Assembly (NCBI GenBank): GCA_039973685.1 | Contig: JBDWKL010000030.1 | Location: 1-40,084 of the forward strand | Source: Hyphomicrobiales bacterium | GTDB taxonomy: Bacteria; Pseudomonadota; Alphaproteobacteria; Rhizobiales; JACESI01 | Direction of reading: 5' to 3' | Length of the DNA: 40,084 nucleotides | In this document: positions 1,200 through 8,521 of the stretch, piece by piece | How positions within the stretch are numbered: the first letter of the stretch is position 1 | How the letters are laid out: each line of letters opens with the position of its first letter | The notes under the pieces: model-generated | Databases searched by the model: none | The model's input: the letters and a program-made list of their open reading frames with translations, nothing else | Told to the model about the DNA's origin: nothing | Program-made: the position numbers and the translations under genes

Positions 1200-1793
1200 C
1201 TAAAGGCAACCATGGGCATTGAGATGGGTTGTGATCAAATCTTTGACGAAGCCTTCAACCGTCTTATCGCTTAAATAAACCAGCTTACCCTTCATCGCCA
1301 AGGTGAGCACGCCATGCAGTGACACCCAAATTTCCGCGACAAAACGTGTGCATTGTTCTTCAGTTTTAAAGGCCGGACCAACCGCCTGCTGAATGACCAC
1401 AACCGGCATTGATAACACCTTGCTATACCATTCAGGCAATTCGCGTGTTTCTGGATAGACATAATCAAACAAGACAGACCACAAACGCGCATCAGACATA
1501 CCAAGCGTTACATAAGCTTCCGCCATGTCATAAATACGTTGAACGGGATCCTCCGATTTTTTCGCCGCCTCTTCCAAACATTCGGTGATGGCATCAGTCG
1601 TGCGGGCGTTCACCAGCAAAATCAACTCGTCCAAATCTCCAATCACATTATACAAAGTACCCGGAGAACATTGCGCCGCCTTTGCCACAGGACGCATAGA
1701 AACAGCCGCCAAGCCCCCTGTTTGCGCAAGCCGTTCAGCCTCTAAAACGGCCTTTTTCTTCAAATCATCATGCGAAAGTTCAGTTTTTCTCAT
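1200..1793 (-). CDS. TetR/AcrR-family transcriptional regulator
   Basis: This 197-residue protein has the usual TetR length and layout. An N-terminal helix-turn-helix (about residues 10-60; GGLAAVSMRPVAKAAQCSPGTLYNVIGDLDEL) is followed by a divergent all-helical ligand domain. It is transcribed divergently from the phospholipid operon starting at 1910. The 116-bp gap contains three copies of a 15-bp palindrome, the nearest 28 bp upstream of this start codon. The inference is that it represses both itself and the lipid operon, and is released by a ligand that may be a fatty acyl compound or phospholipid intermediate. The ligand is not readable from sequence. Its stop codon abuts the stop of the convergent GcvT-like gene. 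Confidence 0.9.
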   Translation of the reverse strand: MRKTELSHDDLKKKAVLEAERLAQTGGLAAVSMRPVAKAAQCSPGTLYNVIGDLDELILLVNARTTDAITECLEEAAKKSEDPVQRIYDMAEAYVTLGMSDARLWSVLFDYVYPETRELPEWYSKVLSMPVVVIQQAVGPAFKTEEQCTRFVAEIWVSLHGVLTLAMKGKLVYLSDKTVEGFVKDLITTHLNAHGCL

Positions 1794-1820
1794 CGATATT
1801 TCAAGCCTTTACGATTTATT

Positions 1821-1890
1821 TTGAACGCCGTTCAAAAAAGATATTGAACAGCGTTCAGAATGCGTGTACATTATTTTGAACAGTGTTCAA
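1821..1890. promoter_or_regulatory. Three tandem 15-bp palindromic operators (probable TetR sites) over the lipid-operon promoter
   Basis: Three near-identical inverted repeats are present: TTGAACGCCGTTCAA at 1821-1835, TTGAACAGCGTTCAG at 1844-1858 and TTGAACAGTGTTCAA at 1876-1890. Centres are 23 and 32 bp apart, about two and three helical turns. A plausible sigma-70 promoter for the plus strand uses TTGAAC (1844-1849) as -35 and, after a 17-bp spacer, TACATT (1867-1872) as -10. Operator 2 would then cover -35 and operator 3 the transcription start. Operator 1 lies close to tetR and may serve autoregulation. Confidence 0.8.
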
Positions 1891-1909
1891 TAATATTAAG
1901 GAAAAAGCA

Positions 1910-2755
1910 ATGTCTCCTTCACTTTCTGAACTAAAAAAACCATTACCCCTTTGGACCCCAAAAGCTTGGTACTATGCAACAGTCCGCGCAGGCTTAAACC
2001 TCGGCGCCCTCTTCTCCAAAGGTCTTGCCATTGGGCAGAAGCACGGATTTGATAGTGGCGTTATGCTCAACCACGTTTACGAAAACAAAGCGCAAGGCGT
2101 TGGATTTCTAGGCCGTTTCATTGACCGCCAATATCTCAATTCGATTGGATGGGTTGGCATTAGAAACCGCGGTGAACTCCTCGCACAAACAATCAAAGAT
2201 ACATTGCAACACTATGGTGCACGTCGTGATCAAATAAATTTCGCAGATCTAGCCTGTGGTGGCGGTCGATATGCTTTGCGCGCCATGAAAAACGTGAGCG
2301 GCGTTAAAATCAACGCAACCTTGCGCGATTACGCGGATGCCAACATTCAACAAACACGCGCGAATGCCCAAGCGCTAGACCTCTCCCCCTGCATTGAAAA
2401 AGCAGATGCGTTCAACGCCCATGATTTAGAAACAATGGAGGAGCAAGATGTTCTTGTCGTGTCTGGCTTGCATGAAATCATTGATGACGACGATCTCATT
2501 CGCCACCATTTCAAACAACTCAAACGTGTTCTGAAACCAGATGGCACTTTGATTCTCACGATCCAGCCAGATCACCCACAACTAGAATTCATCGCTCGCA
2601 CACTAAAAACCCACACAGGCCGCCCTTGGGCTATGCGCTTGCGCAATAAAGACTTGATAACTCAATGGTTGAACAATGCGGGATTTGAAATTCAATCAAT
2701 AAAAATGGAGAATACGGGCATATTCGGCATCATTACTGCGCAACAGGGGGTATAA
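1910..2755 (+). CDS. Class I SAM-dependent methyltransferase (YnbC C-terminal-domain-like)
   Basis: The start is set at ATG 1910, preceded by AAGGAA at 1898-1903. The GTG at 1883 lies inside an operator and is unlikely. The 281-residue protein has a Rossmann methyltransferase core: motif I FADLACGGGRYALRA in mid-protein, then VLVVSGLHEIIDDDDL and RVLKPDGTLILTIQPDHP, ending with an IFGIITAQQ strand. The 100-odd residues before motif I resemble an alpha-helical lead-in. It is the first gene of an operon with YnbA-, PlsC-, YnbB- and LplT/Aas-like genes. In enterobacterial ynbABCD clusters the equivalent gene (ynbC) fuses an alpha/beta hydrolase to a methyltransferase; the hydrolase part is absent here. 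The methyl acceptor is unknown, and a lipid headgroup or lipid precursor is inferred only from context. Confidence 0.8.
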   Translation: MSPSLSELKKPLPLWTPKAWYYATVRAGLNLGALFSKGLAIGQKHGFDSGVMLNHVYENKAQGVGFLGRFIDRQYLNSIGWVGIRNRGELLAQTIKDTLQHYGARRDQINFADLACGGGRYALRAMKNVSGVKINATLRDYADANIQQTRANAQALDLSPCIEKADAFNAHDLETMEEQDVLVVSGLHEIIDDDDLIRHHFKQLKRVLKPDGTLILTIQPDHPQLEFIARTLKTHTGRPWAMRLRNKDLITQWLNNAGFEIQSIKMENTGIFGIITAQQGV

Positions 2756-2756
2756 A

Positions 2757-3377
2757 TTGTCGATTTATCAATTAAAACCCGCCTTTCAAGGATTGCTGCG
2801 ACCTTTCGTGCAGGTTCTTGCGCGGATAGGTATTACCGCCAATATGGTGACGATTTTTGCAGCCGTCTTTTCAGTGCTCTACGGCTTCATCCTCTTCGTT
2901 AGTTTAAAGAGTAATGTAATTGCTTGGTTAGTTTTCCTTCCTGTCGTCTTATTCATCCGCATGGCACTCAATGCAATTGACGGCATGTTGGCGCGGGAAC
3001 ACAATCAGCAATCAATGCTGGGTGCATACCTCAACGAAATCTGCGACCTCATCGCCGACGCCGCTATGATTGCCCCCTTCGCCCTGCTCGCTCCTTTCTC
3101 GCCTTTTTGGATCATTGCAATATTGCTTCTGTCTTGGTTGACTGAGTTCATCGGGATGATGGGCGTTGCCGTTGGCGCAAGCCGTCGTTATGACGGGCCG
3201 ATGGGCAAGAGTGACCGCGCTTTTCTTTTTGGAGCACTAGGCTTGGCCGCTTGGGCCTTTGACGGCTTGTCACCCGTTCTATTCTGGCTACAACCCCTCC
3301 TCGCTCTAGCTCTTATCGTCACTTGCGTGAAGCGCCTTCAAGGTGCCCTTCAAGAAGTGAAAGGAGCAAGCGCATGA
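2757..3377 (+). CDS. CDP-alcohol phosphatidyltransferase family protein, YnbA-like
   Basis: The start is TTG 2757, with CAGGGGG at 2744-2750 as ribosome binding site, one base after the previous stop. The 206-residue membrane protein has several hydrophobic helices and a CDP-alcohol phosphatidyltransferase signature around residues 72-97. It reads N72..D75G76..A79R80........G89...N93...D97. The canonical family motif has Asp where Asn72 and Asn93 stand. From memory, E. coli YnbA shares this Asn variant and the flanking LNA(I/L)DGMLARE, so orthology to YnbA is likely. Classical members swap the CMP of CDP-diacylglycerol for an alcohol such as glycerol phosphate, serine or inositol. The alcohol used here is unknown. 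The gene ends with an ATGA overlap into the next gene. Confidence 0.85.
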   Translation: MSIYQLKPAFQGLLRPFVQVLARIGITANMVTIFAAVFSVLYGFILFVSLKSNVIAWLVFLPVVLFIRMALNAIDGMLAREHNQQSMLGAYLNEICDLIADAAMIAPFALLAPFSPFWIIAILLLSWLTEFIGMMGVAVGASRRYDGPMGKSDRAFLFGALGLAAWAFDGLSPVLFWLQPLLALALIVTCVKRLQGALQEVKGASA

Positions 3378-4045
3378 GCTTTTTAACAACCCGCCTTGCT
3401 GCACCCATTACAGAATTTGCCATTCGCCAAGGATCGCAATTAATCACCGGCGCGCGCGCTTTTCATCATCATGACGATGAGCAACAAGGTTTTGCTCGCC
3501 CCTGCGTCTATTTCGCAAACCATCGCTCCCATGGTGACTTCGTTTTGTTGTGGTCGGTACTACCGCAAAAGCTTCGCGCTATGACCCGTCCTGTCGCTGG
3601 TGCGGACTACTGGAACAAGTCCCCTATTCGAAAATTCATCGGCGAAGATGTATTCAATGCCCTTTTGGTGGAACGCAACTCGACTGAGCGAACAGTAGAC
3701 CCTGTCGAGAAAATGGCTGACGCCGTCGCTCAAGGAAATTCCCTCATCATTTTCCCCGAAGGCACGCGCAATATGGGTGAGGAGAAATTACTGCCGTTTA
3801 AAACAGGCTTATTCCACCTAGCGCGAACCCTCGAAGAGCGCGGTATCAAAGCCGACTTCGTACCCGTATGGATCGACAATCTAAACCGCGTCATGCCAAA
3901 GGGCGAATTCATTCCAGTACCGCTTTTATGCAAAATCCATTTCGGCGCTGCCGTTCCTTTAAATGACGAAGACAAACAAGCCTATCTTGAACGCGCAAGT
4001 AACAGATTAGCCGATCTATCAGGCGAAGATCGGGGGAACGCATGA
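3374..4045 (+). CDS. PlsC-type lysophospholipid / 1-acylglycerol-3-phosphate acyltransferase
   Basis: The start is ATG 3374, overlapping the previous stop (ATGA) and preceded by AAAGGAG. The product has 223 residues. It carries the acyltransferase motif NHRSHGDF (the NHxxxxD catalytic His/Asp, about residue 49) and the phosphate-binding block FPEGTRN near residue 133. Family knowledge: such enzymes put an acyl chain on the sn-2 position of a lysophospholipid or lysophosphatidate at the inner membrane face. Tight coupling on both sides, with ATGA overlaps at its start and end, suggests translation in fixed ratio with the YnbA-like and YnbB-like enzymes. It may supply the phosphatidate that the next enzyme activates to CDP-diacylglycerol. 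Confidence 0.88.
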   Translation: MSFLTTRLAAPITEFAIRQGSQLITGARAFHHHDDEQQGFARPCVYFANHRSHGDFVLLWSVLPQKLRAMTRPVAGADYWNKSPIRKFIGEDVFNALLVERNSTERTVDPVEKMADAVAQGNSLIIFPEGTRNMGEEKLLPFKTGLFHLARTLEERGIKADFVPVWIDNLNRVMPKGEFIPVPLLCKIHFGAAVPLNDEDKQAYLERASNRLADLSGEDRGNA

Positions 4046-5028
4046 GCGATACTCCCGCATCCACCAACGCCCTTGCAGAAACCATGTCTGCACGACCAGA
4101 ACTTACGTGGTTGTTCGTTGGCATCTTCGGCCTTTTAATGACGGCATCTATTGTCTCATTTTTGCTGAAAACATTCGCAAAACAGATTGACCACAAAACG
4201 CTCGAAAATCTCCAAGACCGGATCAACTCGTGGTGGGTGATGATTGGCCTTTTGGTTTTTGTCTGCCTTTTAGGGCGCACTGCTACAATTGTGTTTTTTG
4301 CGATTTGCTCCTTCATGGCGCTCAGGGAATTTCTCACCCTATCCGACACCAGAAAAGGCGATCACTGGTCGCTGATCTTGATGTTCTTTGTCGCGCTACC
4401 CCTACAATATTGGCTGATTGGCATCAGCTATTACGGCGTCTACTCGATTTTCGTTCCGGTTTATTGCTTCCTCCTCTTGCCAGTCATCGCCGCTTTGCGC
4501 GGTGATACGACACGGTTTTTCGAACGGGTTGCGAAAGTACAATGGGCCTTGATGATTTGCGTCTTCTGCCTATCCCACGTGCCTGCCCTCTTAAACCTCA
4601 CCATACCCGGCTTTGGAGAACGCACAGTCATGCTGATCGTCTTCTTGCTGCTGGTGGTTCAACTAAGCGATGTCATGCAATATGTCTGGGGCAAATTATT
4701 CGGCAAAAAACTAATCGCCCCCTCCCTATCTCCATCCAAAACATGGGTTGGCTTTTTTGGCGGGGTAGCGTCTGCTTCCTTGGTCGGCGCCGCCCTTTTC
4801 TGGATTACCCCTTTTAACCCATGGCAAGCTGGCCTAATCTCAATCGTCATTACAGTGATGGGTTTTCTTGGCGGTCTGGTTATGTCTGCCATCAAACGTG
4901 ATTGCGGTGTCAAAGATTGGGGACACACGATAAGGGGGCACGGAGGCTTTTTGGATCGTCTCGATTCCGTCGTTTTTGCGGCCCCTATCTTCTTTCACGT
5001 AACCCGTTTTTTCTACTCAACGAGCTAA
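4042..5028 (+). CDS. Phosphatidate cytidylyltransferase (CdsA family), YnbB-like
   Basis: ATG 4042 overlaps the previous stop (ATGA) and follows CGGGGGAA. The 328-residue product has about eight hydrophobic helices. Near the C-terminus it carries a full CDP-diglyceride synthetase signature, SAIKRDCGVKDWGHTIRGHG followed by GFLDRLD, plus the SPSKTWVGFFGG block upstream. The reaction in the family is CTP plus phosphatidate giving CDP-diacylglycerol and pyrophosphate. At 328 residues it is longer than a housekeeping CdsA (about 270-285) and fits the YnbB type with an N-terminal extension. A dedicated CDP-diacylglycerol synthase beside a dedicated CDP-alcohol phosphatidyltransferase argues for a separate lipid branch, not housekeeping synthesis. 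Confidence 0.9.
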   Translation: MSDTPASTNALAETMSARPELTWLFVGIFGLLMTASIVSFLLKTFAKQIDHKTLENLQDRINSWWVMIGLLVFVCLLGRTATIVFFAICSFMALREFLTLSDTRKGDHWSLILMFFVALPLQYWLIGISYYGVYSIFVPVYCFLLLPVIAALRGDTTRFFERVAKVQWALMICVFCLSHVPALLNLTIPGFGERTVMLIVFLLLVVQLSDVMQYVWGKLFGKKLIAPSLSPSKTWVGFFGGVASASLVGAALFWITPFNPWQAGLISIVITVMGFLGGLVMSAIKRDCGVKDWGHTIRGHGGFLDRLDSVVFAAPIFFHVTRFFYSTS

Positions 5029-5038
5029 GGTCAACATA

Positions 5039-8000
5039 ATGTCTTTCTTCAAGAACGAACTTTTCAAAGACAAAACATTCTTCCCACTGTTTCTCGTGCA
5101 GTTCATCGGCGCGTTTACAGATAATGCTTTAAAGAGCGCTTTCTCGTTTCTTGTCGCGTTTAAAGGGCTTGACCTATTGGGCTTCCCCCCAGACTTCGCC
5201 TTAATGCTCGGCGCGATTATGTATATCCTGCCGTTTGTCTTATTTTCAGGCATATCCGGCGATATTTCTGATCGTTGTGACAAAGCAGACATCATTCAAA
5301 AAACAAGACTGGCCGAGATTGTTCTTGCCGCACTAGCTGGCATTTCGCTCTATGTGGGTTCAGGCTTTTTCATGCTGATTTGTATGTTTTTATATTCTAC
5401 ACAATCTGCATTTTTCGGGCCTGCTAAATATTCAACATTGCCACAAGTTCTTAAAAAAGAGCAGCTCGTGGGCGCCAATGCCTTGTTTGAAAGTTCAACC
5501 TTTGTCGCCATCCTAGCAGGGCTTCTAACAGGTGGTTTTCTTGCTGGTAATGACCTAACCCCAGCGCTTGTTGTTCTCCTTCTAATCGCGTCTATCACGA
5601 GTTATCTCATTTCAAGAATGCTGCCTGCCATTCCTTCTTTCAACAAAGAACAAGCGGTACCGCTCGCACCTATTGCAACATCGGTGACAGCAGTAAAAGA
5701 AGTTCTTAAAAACATCCGCCTAACACGGTCAGCCATCGGCATTGCATGGTTTTGGGCGATTGGTCTTGTGGTCATCAGCATCTTCCCAATCGTTGCCAAA
5801 GAAGATCTTGGGCTTTCTGCCAATGCAGCAAATGGACTAATCGGCGCTTTTGTTATTGGCATCGGCCTTGGCACAGCCTTGGTTTCAAAATTGCTCGATG
5901 GAGAAATTTCCGCGAGACATGTGCCATTCGGCGTTCTTGGGATGGCGATATTCTTGGCCGACTTATGTTTTTCAATCAAAGCTTATCCCGCAGGCCTAAC
6001 TGACCAAAGCCTTGGAACGCTACTCACCACTTGGCACGGGTCACGCATTATCATTGATATGATCGCCATTGCAGCCTTCGGCGGTGTATTCACCGTCCCG
6101 CTTTATGCAATCTTCCAAGCGAACACCAAAGAAGAAACCCGCTCACGTGCGATTGCTGGCAGCAATATCTTAAACTCATTTATCATGATTGCGCTTGCGC
6201 TAACGGCGTCTGCCATCATGGCGCTTAGCGTTAGTTTTGCAGGCCTGCTCCTTATTCTTGCGATCATCAATGTGGGCATTACCATCTATCTCTTCCGCAT
6301 GATGCCAGCCGATTCTTTAAAGGTGGCACTTGCTGCAGTTCTGCGTTTGCTCTTCTCTGCCCGCGTAAAGAACTTGAGCGCTTACGGCGACCCCAATGAA
6401 CCCGCCGTCGTCGTGGCGAACCACACCTCTTATCTCGATGCTGTGTTGATGGGTTGCTTACTTCCAGGCAGACCAGCTTTTGCGGTGAATACCAATATTG
6501 CAAAAGCATGGTGGGTGCGCCCTGCATTCTGGTTGTTCGATCTCATTCCAGTTGACCCAACCAGCCCCTTGTCTGTGCGCAAAATGGTGCAAATCGTTCG
6601 CGATGAAAAACGCCGCCTCATCATTTTCCCAGAAGGACGCCTTACCGTTACAGGCGCTTTGATGAAGATTTATGCGGGGCCAGCCATGATTGCGAGCAAA
6701 GCAGATGCTCCCCTCATCCCTATTCGTATTGAGGGCGCGCAGTTTTCTAAGCTCTCTTATATGAGTAAAAAACTGCCAACCAAATGGTTTCCAAAAATCA
6801 CAGTCACTGTGCTTGAGAAACAGGTTTTGGATTTGCCAGAACACCTAACAGCACGCGGCAAACGCGCTGCTGCTGCAGCAAGTCTACACAGTGTCATGAC
6901 AGCAATGGTTTTTGATACAAGCCCGATTGATACCACGCTCTTCGCGTCCCTCATCACGGCCAAAAAGACCTATGGCAAAATGAAAGTGCTTGAAGATATT
7001 GAGCGCACGCCAATTGGTTATAAGCGCGTCATCACAGGCGCCTTCGCACTTGGCAAGGTCATGGCAGACTATAGCCAGACCAATGATAATATCGGCCTGC
7101 TCCTGCCAAATTCCAACGCCTGCGTGATCTCATTCTTTGGGTGCCACGCTTATAACCGCGTTCCAGCCATGTTGAACTTCACAGCGGGCAGAGCAGGCAT
7201 TCAAGCAGCCCTCACCGCTGCCAGCATAAAGACCGTTTTCACCTCGCGAAGGTTTGTTGAAAAAGGCAAACTTGAAGCGCTGGTTGAGGCTATCGAAGAA
7301 CAAGCAACTGTAGTTTATCTGGAAGACTTGCGCGGCAAAATAACGAGTACGGCCAAAATGAAAGCCTTGCTCCAAGCAACCTTCCCGTCGATTGCGTTAC
7401 GCCTGTCAGGCGGTGCGGCAACGAAGGCTGACGACCCAGCTGTCATCCTGTTTACGTCAGGCTCAGAAGGCTTGCCAAAAGGTGTGGTGCTAAGTCATCG
7501 CAACATTCAAGCAAACCGCTATCAAGTCACCTCGATGATTGATTTTTCAACCAGCGATACGGTGCTCAATGCCCTACCGATGTTCCACTCATTCGGCTTA
7601 ACAGCAGGCACACTTTTACCGCTTCTGTCAGGCGTTAAATCGTTTCTTTATCCTTCACCGTTGCACTACAGGATTGTTCCTGAGATTGCCTATGACAGCA
7701 ATGCGACGATCATGTTTGGTACAGATACTTTCTTGTCTGGCTACGCAAGAATGGCGCACGCATATGACTTTTATTCCCTGCGTTATGTCTTTGCAGGAGC
7801 CGAGCGTGTGCGCCCTGAAACACGTAGAACGTGGAACGAGAAGTTTGGCCTGCGGGTGCTGGAAGGCTACGGCACGACAGAAACCGCGCCCGTTCTTTCC
7901 ATCAACACACCGATGGCCAATCTACCCGGTTCCGTCGGCAAGCTTATGCCCGGCATGACCGCGAAGCTTGAAGACGTGCCAGGTGTTGATGAAGGCGGCA

Positions 8001-8473
8001 GATTGCATGTCTCTGGCCCGAACGTCATGAAGGGCTATCTCAAAGTTGACCTTCCAAACATCATCCAACCACCAGAAGACGGTTGGCATGATACAGGCGA
8101 CATCGTGACCATTGATGACGCTGGATACATCACCATTAAAGGCCGCGCAAAACGGTTCGCGAAAATTGGCGGTGAGATGGTTTCTCTCGCAGCCGTCGAA
8201 GCCTTGGTTGGTGAATGCTGGCCAGAAATGATTGTCGCAGCCGTTGCCTTGCCCCATGACAAAAAAGGCGAGCAAGTGGTGATCTTATCGGAAGACAAAG
8301 ATGTCGATATGAAGGAGCTTTCCACCTTCGCAAAATCGCGCGGTGTGGCCGACATCATGATCCCGAAAACGGTCTATAGCGTGGATGCTATTCCGTTATT
8401 GGGAACAGGGAAAGTCGACCTTGCAGGCGTCAACAAACTTGGCAAAGAGCTGTTTGAGAAATCACAGTCTTAG
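5039..8473 (+). CDS. aas: LplT-Aas fusion: MFS lysophospholipid transporter / acyltransferase / acyl-ACP synthetase
   Basis: This 1,144-residue three-part protein starts at ATG 5039, 10 bp after the previous gene. Residues 1 to about 410 form an MFS permease like LplT (FLVQFIGAFTDNALKSAF). Residues about 450-620 form a PlsC acyltransferase, with NHTSYLD near 461 and FPEGRLT near 530. Residues about 650-1144 form an AMP-binding acyl-ACP synthetase (FTSGSEGLPKGVVLSHRN near 805, GYGTTETAPVLS, then a C-terminal GTGKVDL lysine). In E. coli these are two genes, lplT and aas. They flip lysophospholipid inward and re-acylate it with an acyl-ACP-activated fatty acid. The single-chain form is, as I recall, common in alphaproteobacteria. 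It completes the lipid operon; a hairpin terminator follows at 8493. Confidence 0.93.
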   Translation: MSFFKNELFKDKTFFPLFLVQFIGAFTDNALKSAFSFLVAFKGLDLLGFPPDFALMLGAIMYILPFVLFSGISGDISDRCDKADIIQKTRLAEIVLAALAGISLYVGSGFFMLICMFLYSTQSAFFGPAKYSTLPQVLKKEQLVGANALFESSTFVAILAGLLTGGFLAGNDLTPALVVLLLIASITSYLISRMLPAIPSFNKEQAVPLAPIATSVTAVKEVLKNIRLTRSAIGIAWFWAIGLVVISIFPIVAKEDLGLSANAANGLIGAFVIGIGLGTALVSKLLDGEISARHVPFGVLGMAIFLADLCFSIKAYPAGLTDQSLGTLLTTWHGSRIIIDMIAIAAFGGVFTVPLYAIFQANTKEETRSRAIAGSNILNSFIMIALALTASAIMALSVSFAGLLLILAIINVGITIYLFRMMPADSLKVALAAVLRLLFSARVKNLSAYGDPNEPAVVVANHTSYLDAVLMGCLLPGRPAFAVNTNIAKAWWVRPAFWLFDLIPVDPTSPLSVRKMVQIVRDEKRRLIIFPEGRLTVTGALMKIYAGPAMIASKADAPLIPIRIEGAQFSKLSYMSKKLPTKWFPKITVTVLEKQVLDLPEHLTARGKRAAAAASLHSVMTAMVFDTSPIDTTLFASLITAKKTYGKMKVLEDIERTPIGYKRVITGAFALGKVMADYSQTNDNIGLLLPNSNACVISFFGCHAYNRVPAMLNFTAGRAGIQAALTAASIKTVFTSRRFVEKGKLEALVEAIEEQATVVYLEDLRGKITSTAKMKALLQATFPSIALRLSGGAATKADDPAVILFTSGSEGLPKGVVLSHRNIQANRYQVTSMIDFSTSDTVLNALPMFHSFGLTAGTLLPLLSGVKSFLYPSPLHYRIVPEIAYDSNATIMFGTDTFLSGYARMAHAYDFYSLRYVFAGAERVRPETRRTWNEKFGLRVLEGYGTTETAPVLSINTPMANLPGSVGKLMPGMTAKLEDVPGVDEGGRLHVSGPNVMKGYLKVDLPNIIQPPEDGWHDTGDIVTIDDAGYITIKGRAKRFAKIGGEMVSLAAVEALVGECWPEMIVAAVALPHDKKGEQVVILSEDKDVDMKELSTFAKSRGVADIMIPKTVYSVDAIPLLGTGKVDLAGVNKLGKELFEKSQS

Positions 8474-8492: not shown

Positions 8493-8521
8493 GCTTAGGT
8501 GCATTAACGCTGCACCTAAGC
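8493..8521. terminator. Bidirectional terminator hairpin between aas and matB
   Basis: A perfect 11-bp inverted repeat, GCTTAGGTGCA (8493-8503) and TGCACCTAAGC (8511-8521), encloses a 7-base loop. T-rich sequence flanks it in both directions (GTTTACTTGTTT on plus, TTTCGTTGTGTCTTT on minus). It lies between convergent genes, so it can end both operons. Confidence 0.85.

Follow-up and report, generated by a model that had tools for sequence, protein, structure and literature searches.

Among the closest described relatives of the operon reported here are the ynbABCD genes of E. coli. Their YnbB protein makes CDP-diacylglycerol in vitro (PMC7018664, which cites Sato 2019 on YnbB), is unable to replace CdsA and raises MPIase when over-produced (PMC6362211), and a review credits it with activity for MPIase and not for bulk phospholipid (PMC7018664). 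YnbD has been tried in complementation and did not rescue PGP-phosphatase or undecaprenyl-PP-phosphatase mutants (PMC7413402). Calling ynbABCD uncharacterised, as a sequence-only reading of our locus had done, was too strong. Two other known systems are relevant. PIP synthases share the membrane fold of YnbA, and LplT-Aas proteins (NF005291), which take up and re-acylate lysophospholipids, are usually unlinked to ynb genes. Among the titles and abstract openings listed from the open-access literature, none describes a YnbA-YnbB-PlsC set or the YnbA active-site signature reported below.

We analysed a 40,084-nucleotide stretch of DNA from a Hyphomicrobiales bacterium (the window), which carries a tetR gene facing a five-gene lipid operon. 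We lean, by a modest balance of probability, towards a TetR-repressed operon that forms a dedicated, switchable side branch of phospholipid synthesis, placing a probably phosphorylated head group onto CDP-diacylglycerol.

Organization of the operon

Five packed genes span positions 1910–8473 and face tetR, and all six open reading frames lie where the sequence-only reading had put them. The methyltransferase and YnbA genes are 1 bp apart, YnbA/PlsC and PlsC/YnbB overlap by ATGA, and 10 bp separate YnbB from Aas, in agreement with the packing claimed earlier. The features are as follows.

1200–1793, minus strand: tetR-family repressor gene encoding 197 aa, transcribed away from the operon
1821–1835: putative operator O1, TTGAACGCCGTTCAA, perfect match to the consensus
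1844–1858: putative operator O2, TTGAACAGCGTTCAG, one mismatch
1865–1894, plus strand: promoter-like site TGTACA-18-AATAAT, weak
1876–1890: putative operator O3, TTGAACAGTGTTCAA, perfect match, within the promoter-like site
1910–2755, plus strand: stand-alone PF12147 methyltransferase, 281 aa from ATG 1910, homologue of the YnbC C-terminal domain
2757–3377, plus strand: YnbA-like CDP-alcohol transferase with Asn at D1 (N72) and D3 (N93)
3374–4045, plus strand: PlsC-like acyltransferase with NHxxxxD and FPEGT, likely start ATG 3374, 223 aa
4042–5028, plus strand: YnbB-like CdsA paralogue with intact C-terminal signature (SAIKRD..VKD.G....GHGG..DR.D)
5039–8473, plus strand: LplT-Aas fusion with MFS lysolipid transporter, acyltransferase and acyl-ACP synthetase domains
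8493–8521: possible terminator, a hairpin with an 11-bp stem between the operon and a convergent malonyl-CoA synthase gene; such sites are little above chance overall (16 found, 11.4 expected)

The gene identities are borne out by Pfam and NCBI profiles and by blastp against the E. coli Ynb proteins (E from 1.8e-41 to 2e-55). The methyltransferase scores 256.9 bits against Methyltransf_20 (PF12147), a domain it has in common with YnbC, and is 36% identical to the E. coli YnbC methyltransferase domain; its likely start is ATG 1910, since GTG 1883 falls within an operator. YnbA (47% identity) scores 39.4 bits against CDP-OH_P_transf (PF01066; cut-off 22), YnbB (37%) 219.9 bits against CTP_transf_1 (PF01148; cut-off 24), and PlsC 74.9 bits against the Acyltransferase domain. 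The last protein matches NF005291 along its whole length at 1415.5 bits (cut-off 1349), contains MFS_1, Acyltransferase and AMP-binding domains, and carries the motifs NHTSYLD, FPEGR and TSGSEGLPKG. TetR barely passes for TetR_N (24.1 bits, cut-off 24) and scores 28.1 for TetR_C_33. The C-terminal signature of YnbB, which we take to be that of CdsA, is invariant in all six YnbB-like proteins aligned; family and signature together predict a phosphatidate cytidylyltransferase. A self-contained PlsC, CdsA-like and CDP-alcohol-transferase gene set is thus present, as had been proposed. Because the genome holds further CTP_transf_1, PF01066 and PF01553 genes, the operon would be an extra route.

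Three of its proteins are therefore direct homologues of E. coli ynbABCD products, but the window operon differs in gene order, lacks YnbD and the YnbC hydrolase, and adds PlsC, LplT-Aas and the divergent tetR. Searches of the whole genome with E. coli YnbD and the YnbC hydrolase, both run without a positive control, gave no match. With YnbD missing from the window, any phosphorylated acceptor would have to rely on a different phosphatase, which counts against the side-branch reading. The methyltransferase model is confident (mean pLDDT 93), and its top fold match is 3ocj (Z 22.8, rmsd 3.3, 246 residues, 18% identity). We draw no substrate from this fold, as the title of 3ocj says only possible exported protein and class I methyltransferases crowd just below it in the ranking.

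A variant active site in YnbA

The PF01066 catalytic motif, D1xxD2G1xxAR...G2xxxD3xxxD4, contains eight residues called absolutely conserved in PMC4634129. In a register set by alignment to solved PIP synthases, the window YnbA departs from it with Asn at both D1 and D3, and the same pair occurs in 132 of 132 loci with a YnbA match. Two matches without the motif are C-terminal halves of split frames (L019 and L139), and the other halves carry both Asn. We accordingly file YnbA as a variant subfamily and not as a functionally proven member. With two of three metal-ligand Asp gone, an altered or reduced metal site is expected.

Among solved structures, the protein comes nearest to PIP synthases. 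Its AlphaFold2 model (mean pLDDT 95) has the membrane fold of the family, and the 13 PDB matches with E ≤ 0.001 are without exception chains of PIP synthases, with TM scores of 0.67–0.73 to M. tuberculosis PgsA1. D2 and D4 are shared with PgsA1 (6h5a) and M. kansasii PIPS (6wm5), whose folds agree with the model at TM about 0.7, and the acceptor-phosphate arginines of PIP synthase, R155 and R195, have counterparts in YnbA. Across 90 aligned YnbA sequences, Verrucomicrobia included, D2, D4, both glycines and N93 are invariant, R154 is found in all 90 and R193 in 89. Besides Asn at D1 and D3, a further difference from PIP synthase lies after D4, where inositol-phosphate users carry Arg (PgsA1 R94); the window protein has L and window-type YnbA proteins mostly V, I or L, which counts against the side-branch reading.

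The changes at D1 and D3 could equally signal a YnbA without phosphatidyl transfer. This would suit a membrane-repair or back-up operon in which PlsC, YnbB and Aas top up phosphatidate and CDP-diacylglycerol, YnbA is a weak enzyme or a regulatory pseudo-enzyme, and no new lipid is made; LplT-Aas is, moreover, a lysolipid repair enzyme. The in vitro activity of E. coli YnbB (PMC7018664) points the same way. We nevertheless regard such a function as unlikely. The invariance of YnbA residues over 90 sequences argues against decay, E. coli YnbB is no substitute for CdsA (PMC6362211), and a methyltransferase, joined elsewhere by YnbC and YnbD, accompanies the gene set.

Neighbouring genes and the MPIase question

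The effect of over-produced YnbB on MPIase (PMC6362211) and its description as active for MPIase (PMC7018664) raise a second alternative, in which a sugar-pyrophosphate-diacylglycerol anchor for membrane protein insertion is the product of YnbB, perhaps acting together with YnbA. The same literature reports that an E. coli ynbB knock-out did not significantly change MPIase. Clustering of flanking ORFs found no conserved extra neighbour in more than 9 loci among the 25 largest clusters listed, and no glycosyltransferase was recognised among these clusters, which were read without a family scan. An MPIase operon would also leave PlsC, the methyltransferase, YnbC and YnbD unexplained, and we think it quite improbable.

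Representatives of two clusters, from L060 and L058, fall between YnbD and PlsC and overlap the end of the YnbD frame, a tentative hint of a small extra protein there. Of the 80 named loci, 46 have a YnbD–PlsC gap of 250–600 bp. The gap ORFs were chosen by length, several look wrong-frame (for example in L040, L045 and L047), and a profile built from them matched 40 of its 46 own training sequences.

Palindromes in the divergent region

The sites O1–O3 amount to three in 116 bp, compared with a simulated mean of 0.00075. Promoter-like sites in the region occur at chance frequency (8 found, 9.5 expected). TetR homologues of 23–32% identity adjoin related cassettes, and a first scan placed TTGAAC-N3-GTTCAA sites beside nine of nine distinct tetR-linked cassettes. 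Over 130 loci, TTGAACNNNGTTCAA with at most one mismatch gave 25 matches in 0.70 Mb of cassette versus 3 in 1.72 Mb of flank, and was present at 10 of 10 TetR-linked loci; because one contig appears twice, as L077 and L147, these counts become 23 matches and nine of nine loci. One of the three flank matches precedes a full-length LplT-Aas ORF by 62 bp (L146). With a TetR domain in the regulator and conserved palindromes as putative operators in the divergent region, the control by divergent TetR suggested earlier is likely.

The window genome has 30 operator-like sites per strand (at most one mismatch) versus 8 for a reversed control. The scan covered six genomes, after which six other operator-like places were inspected; as some of them sit within genes, we do not claim a wider TetR regulon.

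Conservation of the cassette

We found that the core of the operon is widespread. At 40 YnbB places sampled in the source order, YnbA accompanies YnbB in 36 and PlsC in 37; at 24 in the source class, the figures are 22 and 23; and 72 of the 80 named loci have all three genes together. The profiles for these proteins had been built from loci read earlier in this survey, and two of the loci, L040 and L041, are close to identical. Under a 4 kb distance rule, YnbA was at first missed in L020, L022, L024, L107 and L108 (order) and in L020 and L148 (class), which were counted as present because the gene lies further along the cassette. We scored L112 as a miss, together with L134, whose contig is 4 kb long, and L144 and L145, where the YnbB match is weak and partial. 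YnbA-YnbB-PlsC is a conserved, widespread core and no oddity of one strain, so the gene order, for this core, extends well beyond the strain examined.

The usual fuller cassette adds YnbC (hydrolase plus methyltransferase) and YnbD. Cassettes of the order YnbA-YnbC-YnbD-PlsC-YnbB, found in Pseudomonas, Cupriavidus, Mesorhizobium, Acinetobacter and others (many of L028–L104), have the YnbA, PlsC and YnbB families in common with the window; the window PlsC is about 50% and YnbB about 60% identical to theirs, and plasmid-type cassettes are about equally close. Unlike in these cassettes, the window methyltransferase stands alone. Three tetR-MT-YnbA-YnbB-PlsC operons (L018, L019 and L146) resemble the window in their divergent TetR, the same palindromes and a stand-alone methyltransferase gene in first place, but contain no Aas, and their YnbB (about 40%) and PlsC (31–33%) are far more distant than those of the other types. 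The window methyltransferase is closest (51–54%) to those of L018, L019 and the split gene of L025, where methyltransferase and YnbC hydrolase are two genes, a split YnbC; the window operon may therefore be a mosaic.

The sequence-only reading had singled out the union of Ynb genes, Aas and a repressor. The core and tetR do recur, but of the loci read, the window alone showed the exact five-gene order with an internal full-length Aas. In a minority of loci, the cassette has Aas or LplT-acyltransferase genes as neighbours. In L027 and L098, an LplT-acyltransferase gene starts or ends some 30 bp away from ynbA, and in L146 a full-length LplT-Aas gene that has a palindrome of its own is located about 1.6 kb past tetR. 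Two observations count against the side-branch reading: Aas lies within 10 kb of ynb genes in only 3 of 13 class genomes holding both, window included, and the methyltransferase is absent from the other three same-genus genomes in the sample. The uniqueness of the five-gene order might suggest unrelated lipid genes side by side by chance in one strain, but this is hardly credible, given that YnbA, YnbB and PlsC adjoin in nearly all YnbB places read and that a common palindrome goes with tetR-linked cassettes.

A proposed side branch

The gene set, its tight packing, the three conserved palindromes, the catalytic motifs of PlsC, YnbB and Aas and the conserved core, as read from the DNA, are compatible with the following side branch of phospholipid synthesis. 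TetR would occupy O1–O3 and cover the promoter until an acyl or lipid-like ligand binds. Upon induction, LplT-Aas would import lysophospholipid and re-acylate it with acyl-ACP, PlsC would form phosphatidate, and YnbB would convert this to CDP-diacylglycerol for the side branch and not for bulk lipid. YnbA would then transfer the phosphatidyl group to an acceptor that is small and probably phosphorylated; it retains N29 and T32 of the nucleotide site, D2, D4 as the catalytic base, and two PIP-synthase-type acceptor-phosphate arginines. The methyltransferase may act last, on the product or the acceptor; in fuller cassettes elsewhere, YnbD would dephosphorylate and the YnbC hydrolase deacylate. 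The head group and the methylation target are purely conjectural.

A bolder version, to which we give very little credence, makes YnbA the founder of its own class of CDP-lipid transferases. Its Asn residues at D1 and D3 would strip most of the metal site and let a phosphate, not a hydroxyl, attack CDP-diacylglycerol, so that YnbB and YnbA yield a pyrophosphate-linked X-P-P-diacylglycerol that is methylated later. If true, Proteobacteria and Verrucomicrobia have a widespread, regulated lipid that has been overlooked so far.

In the literature covered, a role has been proposed among the E. coli ynb genes for YnbB only. These genes are now placed in a conserved set of YnbA, YnbB and PlsC, often with YnbC and YnbD, which in several lineages gains a candidate operator and repressor. 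The strict active-site change of YnbA and the regulated cassette point to a membrane lipid that can be sought, and together these features make the question of the ynb role testable. Either a novel head group or a CDP-lipid transferase poor in metal would, if true, be new enzymology.

Layout of the operon

The 3.23-Mb genome is assembled in 55 contigs, the window being contig C30, and it carries a tetR gene divergent from five tightly packed genes, in which the intergenic spacings are 1 bp, an ATGA overlap twice, and 10 bp. Gene content, packing and families agree with the sequence-only reading, which had described a TetR-divergent five-gene operon.

1200-1793, minus strand: tetR, divergent from the five-gene operon
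1883-2755 (ORF; likely start ATG 1910): methyltransferase, first operon gene
2757-3377: YnbA-like, TTG start, second operon gene
3374-4045: PlsC, third operon gene
4042-5028: YnbB-like, fourth operon gene
5039-8473: LplT-Aas, fifth operon gene
8493-8521: hairpin with an 11-bp stem, between the operon and a convergent malonyl-CoA synthase gene

Elsewhere in the genome CTP_transf_1 occurs at one place, PF01553 at two and PF01066 at three, and the operon genes of these families are therefore paralogues beyond that set. The gene at 42-1199 is GcvT-fold aminomethyltransferase-like, with every NCBIfam match far under cut-off. Downstream, at 10131-30825, there are apparently several TRAP-transporter gene sets with regulators, judged by eye from the translations; these are probably catabolic and separate from the lipid operon. 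A 15-mer near the contig end (40022-40036) recurs at position 79 of contig C14, and may be a repeat at which the assembly was interrupted.

A widespread and partly known gene set

The sequence-only reading took the operon for a candidate undescribed system, a self-contained pathway that would attach an alcohol to CDP-diacylglycerol. A lipid branch is a sound idea, but the gene set is widespread and in part already known, and the operon is a variant of it rather than an isolated undescribed system. In the order sample, a YnbB-like match at E <= 1e-30 was found in 39 of 150 genomes, at 40 places (the window, L018-L022, L024, L105-L124 and L133-L145), every one of which was read; the same cassette holds YnbA at 36/40 and PlsC at 37/40, with five long cassettes counted in. 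In the class sample, 24 of 385 genomes have a YnbB match at E <= 1e-40; all 24 were read, and the neighbours of YnbB include YnbA in 22 of them and PlsC in 23 (long cassettes L020 and L148 counted in). The co-occurrence thus extends beyond the strain; the two samples overlap at two places, the window and genome G084.

The named genomes, a third sample, gave 538 confirmed candidates, of which the best 80 were kept, with loci of up to 21 kb. Anywhere in these best 80 loci, YnbA is present in 76, YnbB in 77, PlsC in 74 and all three together in 72; 78 have an unsplit YnbC, and 76 have YnbD. By title, the best 80 of 538 come from alpha-, beta-, gamma- and delta-proteobacteria, Verrucomicrobia and one Thermoanaerobaculia MAG; contig ends truncate at least L025, L034 and L103, and the near-identical L040 and L041 are both counted. 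A gap of 250-600 bp recurs between YnbD and PlsC in 46 of these best 80 of 538 loci and may hold a small extra gene, the choice of ORF being crude. The methyltransferase family PF12147 is rare in the class (9/385 genomes at E <= 0.001, strong at E <= 1e-70 in five), and the methyltransferase is absent from all three sampled congeners (G001-G003).

Relative to E. coli K-12, identity by blastp is 47% for YnbA, 37% for YnbB and 36% for the methyltransferase domain of YnbC; PF12147 scores 508 bits against E. coli YnbC and 257 bits against the window methyltransferase. The window PlsC has no blastp match to E. coli YnbA-D at E 1e-3. L025 (uncultured Afifella) encodes the methyltransferase and the YnbC hydrolase separately, in a pair of overlapping genes that amount to YnbC in two pieces. 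PMC6362211 reports that YnbB over-production raised MPIase, that ynbB loss left MPIase without significant change, and that YnbB cannot replace CdsA (given there as data not shown). Other papers report that YnbB makes CDP-DAG in vitro (PMC7018664), that YnbD fails to complement mutants of PGP-phosphatase or of undecaprenyl-PP-phosphatase (PMC7413402), that ynbB or ynbA are among genetic-screen hits, without mechanism (PMC8609368, PMC13031359), and that ynbB is not needed for phosphoglyceride-linked ECA (PMC8609368). The YnbB and YnbD literature is consistent with a branch having its own substrate, without proving one. The sequences themselves show the gene content, the palindromes, the motifs and the conservation; for this branch we infer a TetR ligand, substrates, a reaction order, an acceptor and a methylated group.

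A possible mosaic origin and the Aas link

Pairwise identities suggest that the window operon may be a mosaic. Its YnbB is ~60% identical to those of YnbC-type and plasmid-type cassettes, as against ~40% for the tetR-methyltransferase type, and its PlsC ~50-60% as against 31-33%. For the methyltransferase, the highest identities are to the stand-alone type (53-54% to L018 and L019, 51% to L025); those to the YnbC-type domains first aligned are 36-39%. The plasmid-type order PlsC-YnbB-YnbA' recurs on Rhizobium, Paracoccus, Gemmobacter and Nitratireductor plasmids, with a small hypothetical gene 5' of YnbA' in three of four annotated cases, and is also present in G001 (L105), a congener of the window species. 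Such cassettes were seen at L013-L017, L105, L106 and L192, most with a small hypothetical gene; the one at L016 is near inositol catabolism genes.

The link of Aas to the cassette is real, yet occasional, as proximity in the class sample and the named loci together indicate. Of the 385 class genomes, 100 match LplT or LplT-acyltransferase at E <= 1e-20 and 24 match YnbB; 13 have both, <=10 kb apart in three (the window, G335 and G299), where rough arithmetic for the 12 non-window genomes of ~4 Mb gives a chance expectation of well under one case. In G299 (L183), Aas and PlsC are convergent and ~4 bp apart. Among the best 80 of 538 named loci, three have an LplT-acyltransferase gene: in L027 and L098 it lies ~30 bp from ynbA on the same strand and is without the AMP-binding domain, and in L034 it is convergent and full-length.

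Palindromes and TetR

Three TTGAAC-N3-GTTCAA sites lie within the 116-bp region 1794-1909, where a first-order simulation gives a mean of 0.00075. When <=1 mismatch is allowed, 130 loci contain 25 sites in 0.70 Mb of cassette sequence (taken with 400 bp on each side) versus 3 in 1.72 Mb outside, and palindromes are found in all ten loci with a linked TetR homologue; L077 and L147 are one contig, so that the distinct figures are 23 cassette sites and nine TetR-linked loci. L021 and L025 have palindromes with no TetR homologue in view. Since most of the 130 cassettes have neither TetR homologue nor palindrome, this control is not general. Outside the 130, L186 and L188 both have sites, and L188 a TetR. 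Of the three sites found beyond the cassettes, the one at L146:15648 precedes by 62 bp a full-length LplT-Aas ORF that adjoins a tetR-divergent methyltransferase-YnbA-YnbB-PlsC operon.

The putative operator O3 (1876-1890) overlaps a promoter-like site (1865-1894, TGTACA-18-AATAAT) of a kind that occurs at chance frequency in the region; the overlap would fit repression by occlusion. A second TetR homologue of the genome (L168:4429-5049, contig C16; 26% identity to the window TetR) has two operator-like sites in front, 34 bp apart, and the motif may therefore serve more than one TetR. Contig C13 of G335 has another pair of operator-like sites (L169:6425-6473), again with a distance of 34 bp, ahead of an ORF of 897 aa; an ORF of 753 aa is divergent from it.

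The active site of YnbA

PMC4634129 gives D1xxD2G1xxAR...G2xxxD3xxxD4 as "eight absolutely conserved residues" of the CDP-alcohol phosphotransferases, in which metal is bound by D1-D3 and D4 probably acts as base; PMC6506517 gives D68, D71 and D89 as Mg-1 ligands, Mg-2 on D89, D93 as presumed base, and R155 and R195 as holding the acceptor phosphate. The predicted model of the window YnbA (mean pLDDT 95) has PIP synthases as best structural matches, and in a profile alignment to their structures N72 aligns to D1 and N93 to D3. With a pattern leaving D1 and D3 free, Asn/Asn is found in 108/108 matching YnbA ORFs, E. coli YnbA among them. By profile, 132 of the 134 matches in the order, class and named sets have Asn/Asn. 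The two exceptions come from split reading frames: each is the C-terminal half, and the N-terminal half carries Asn/Asn, which is thus present in all 132 loci with a YnbA match (130 once two duplicate pairs are removed). At the same positions, the window genome's three remaining PF01066 proteins have Asp/Asp.

In an alignment of 90 YnbA, there is no variation at D2, G1, A, G2, D4, K151, R154 or an additional D at position 101; R193 is present in 89 sequences and the Arg of the AR pair in 77. The profile alignment pairs R154 with R155 and R193 with R195. PIP synthases use an Arg that directly follows D4; plasmid-type YnbA' retains it in the cases for which the motif was read out, and the window YnbA does not. 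The strict Asn/Asn change, absent from the sequence-only reading, is the most surprising element of the operon. Since the rest of the site is kept and both residues are changed alike everywhere, the Asn/Asn YnbA would seem to result from selection for an altered mechanism or substrate rather than from decay.
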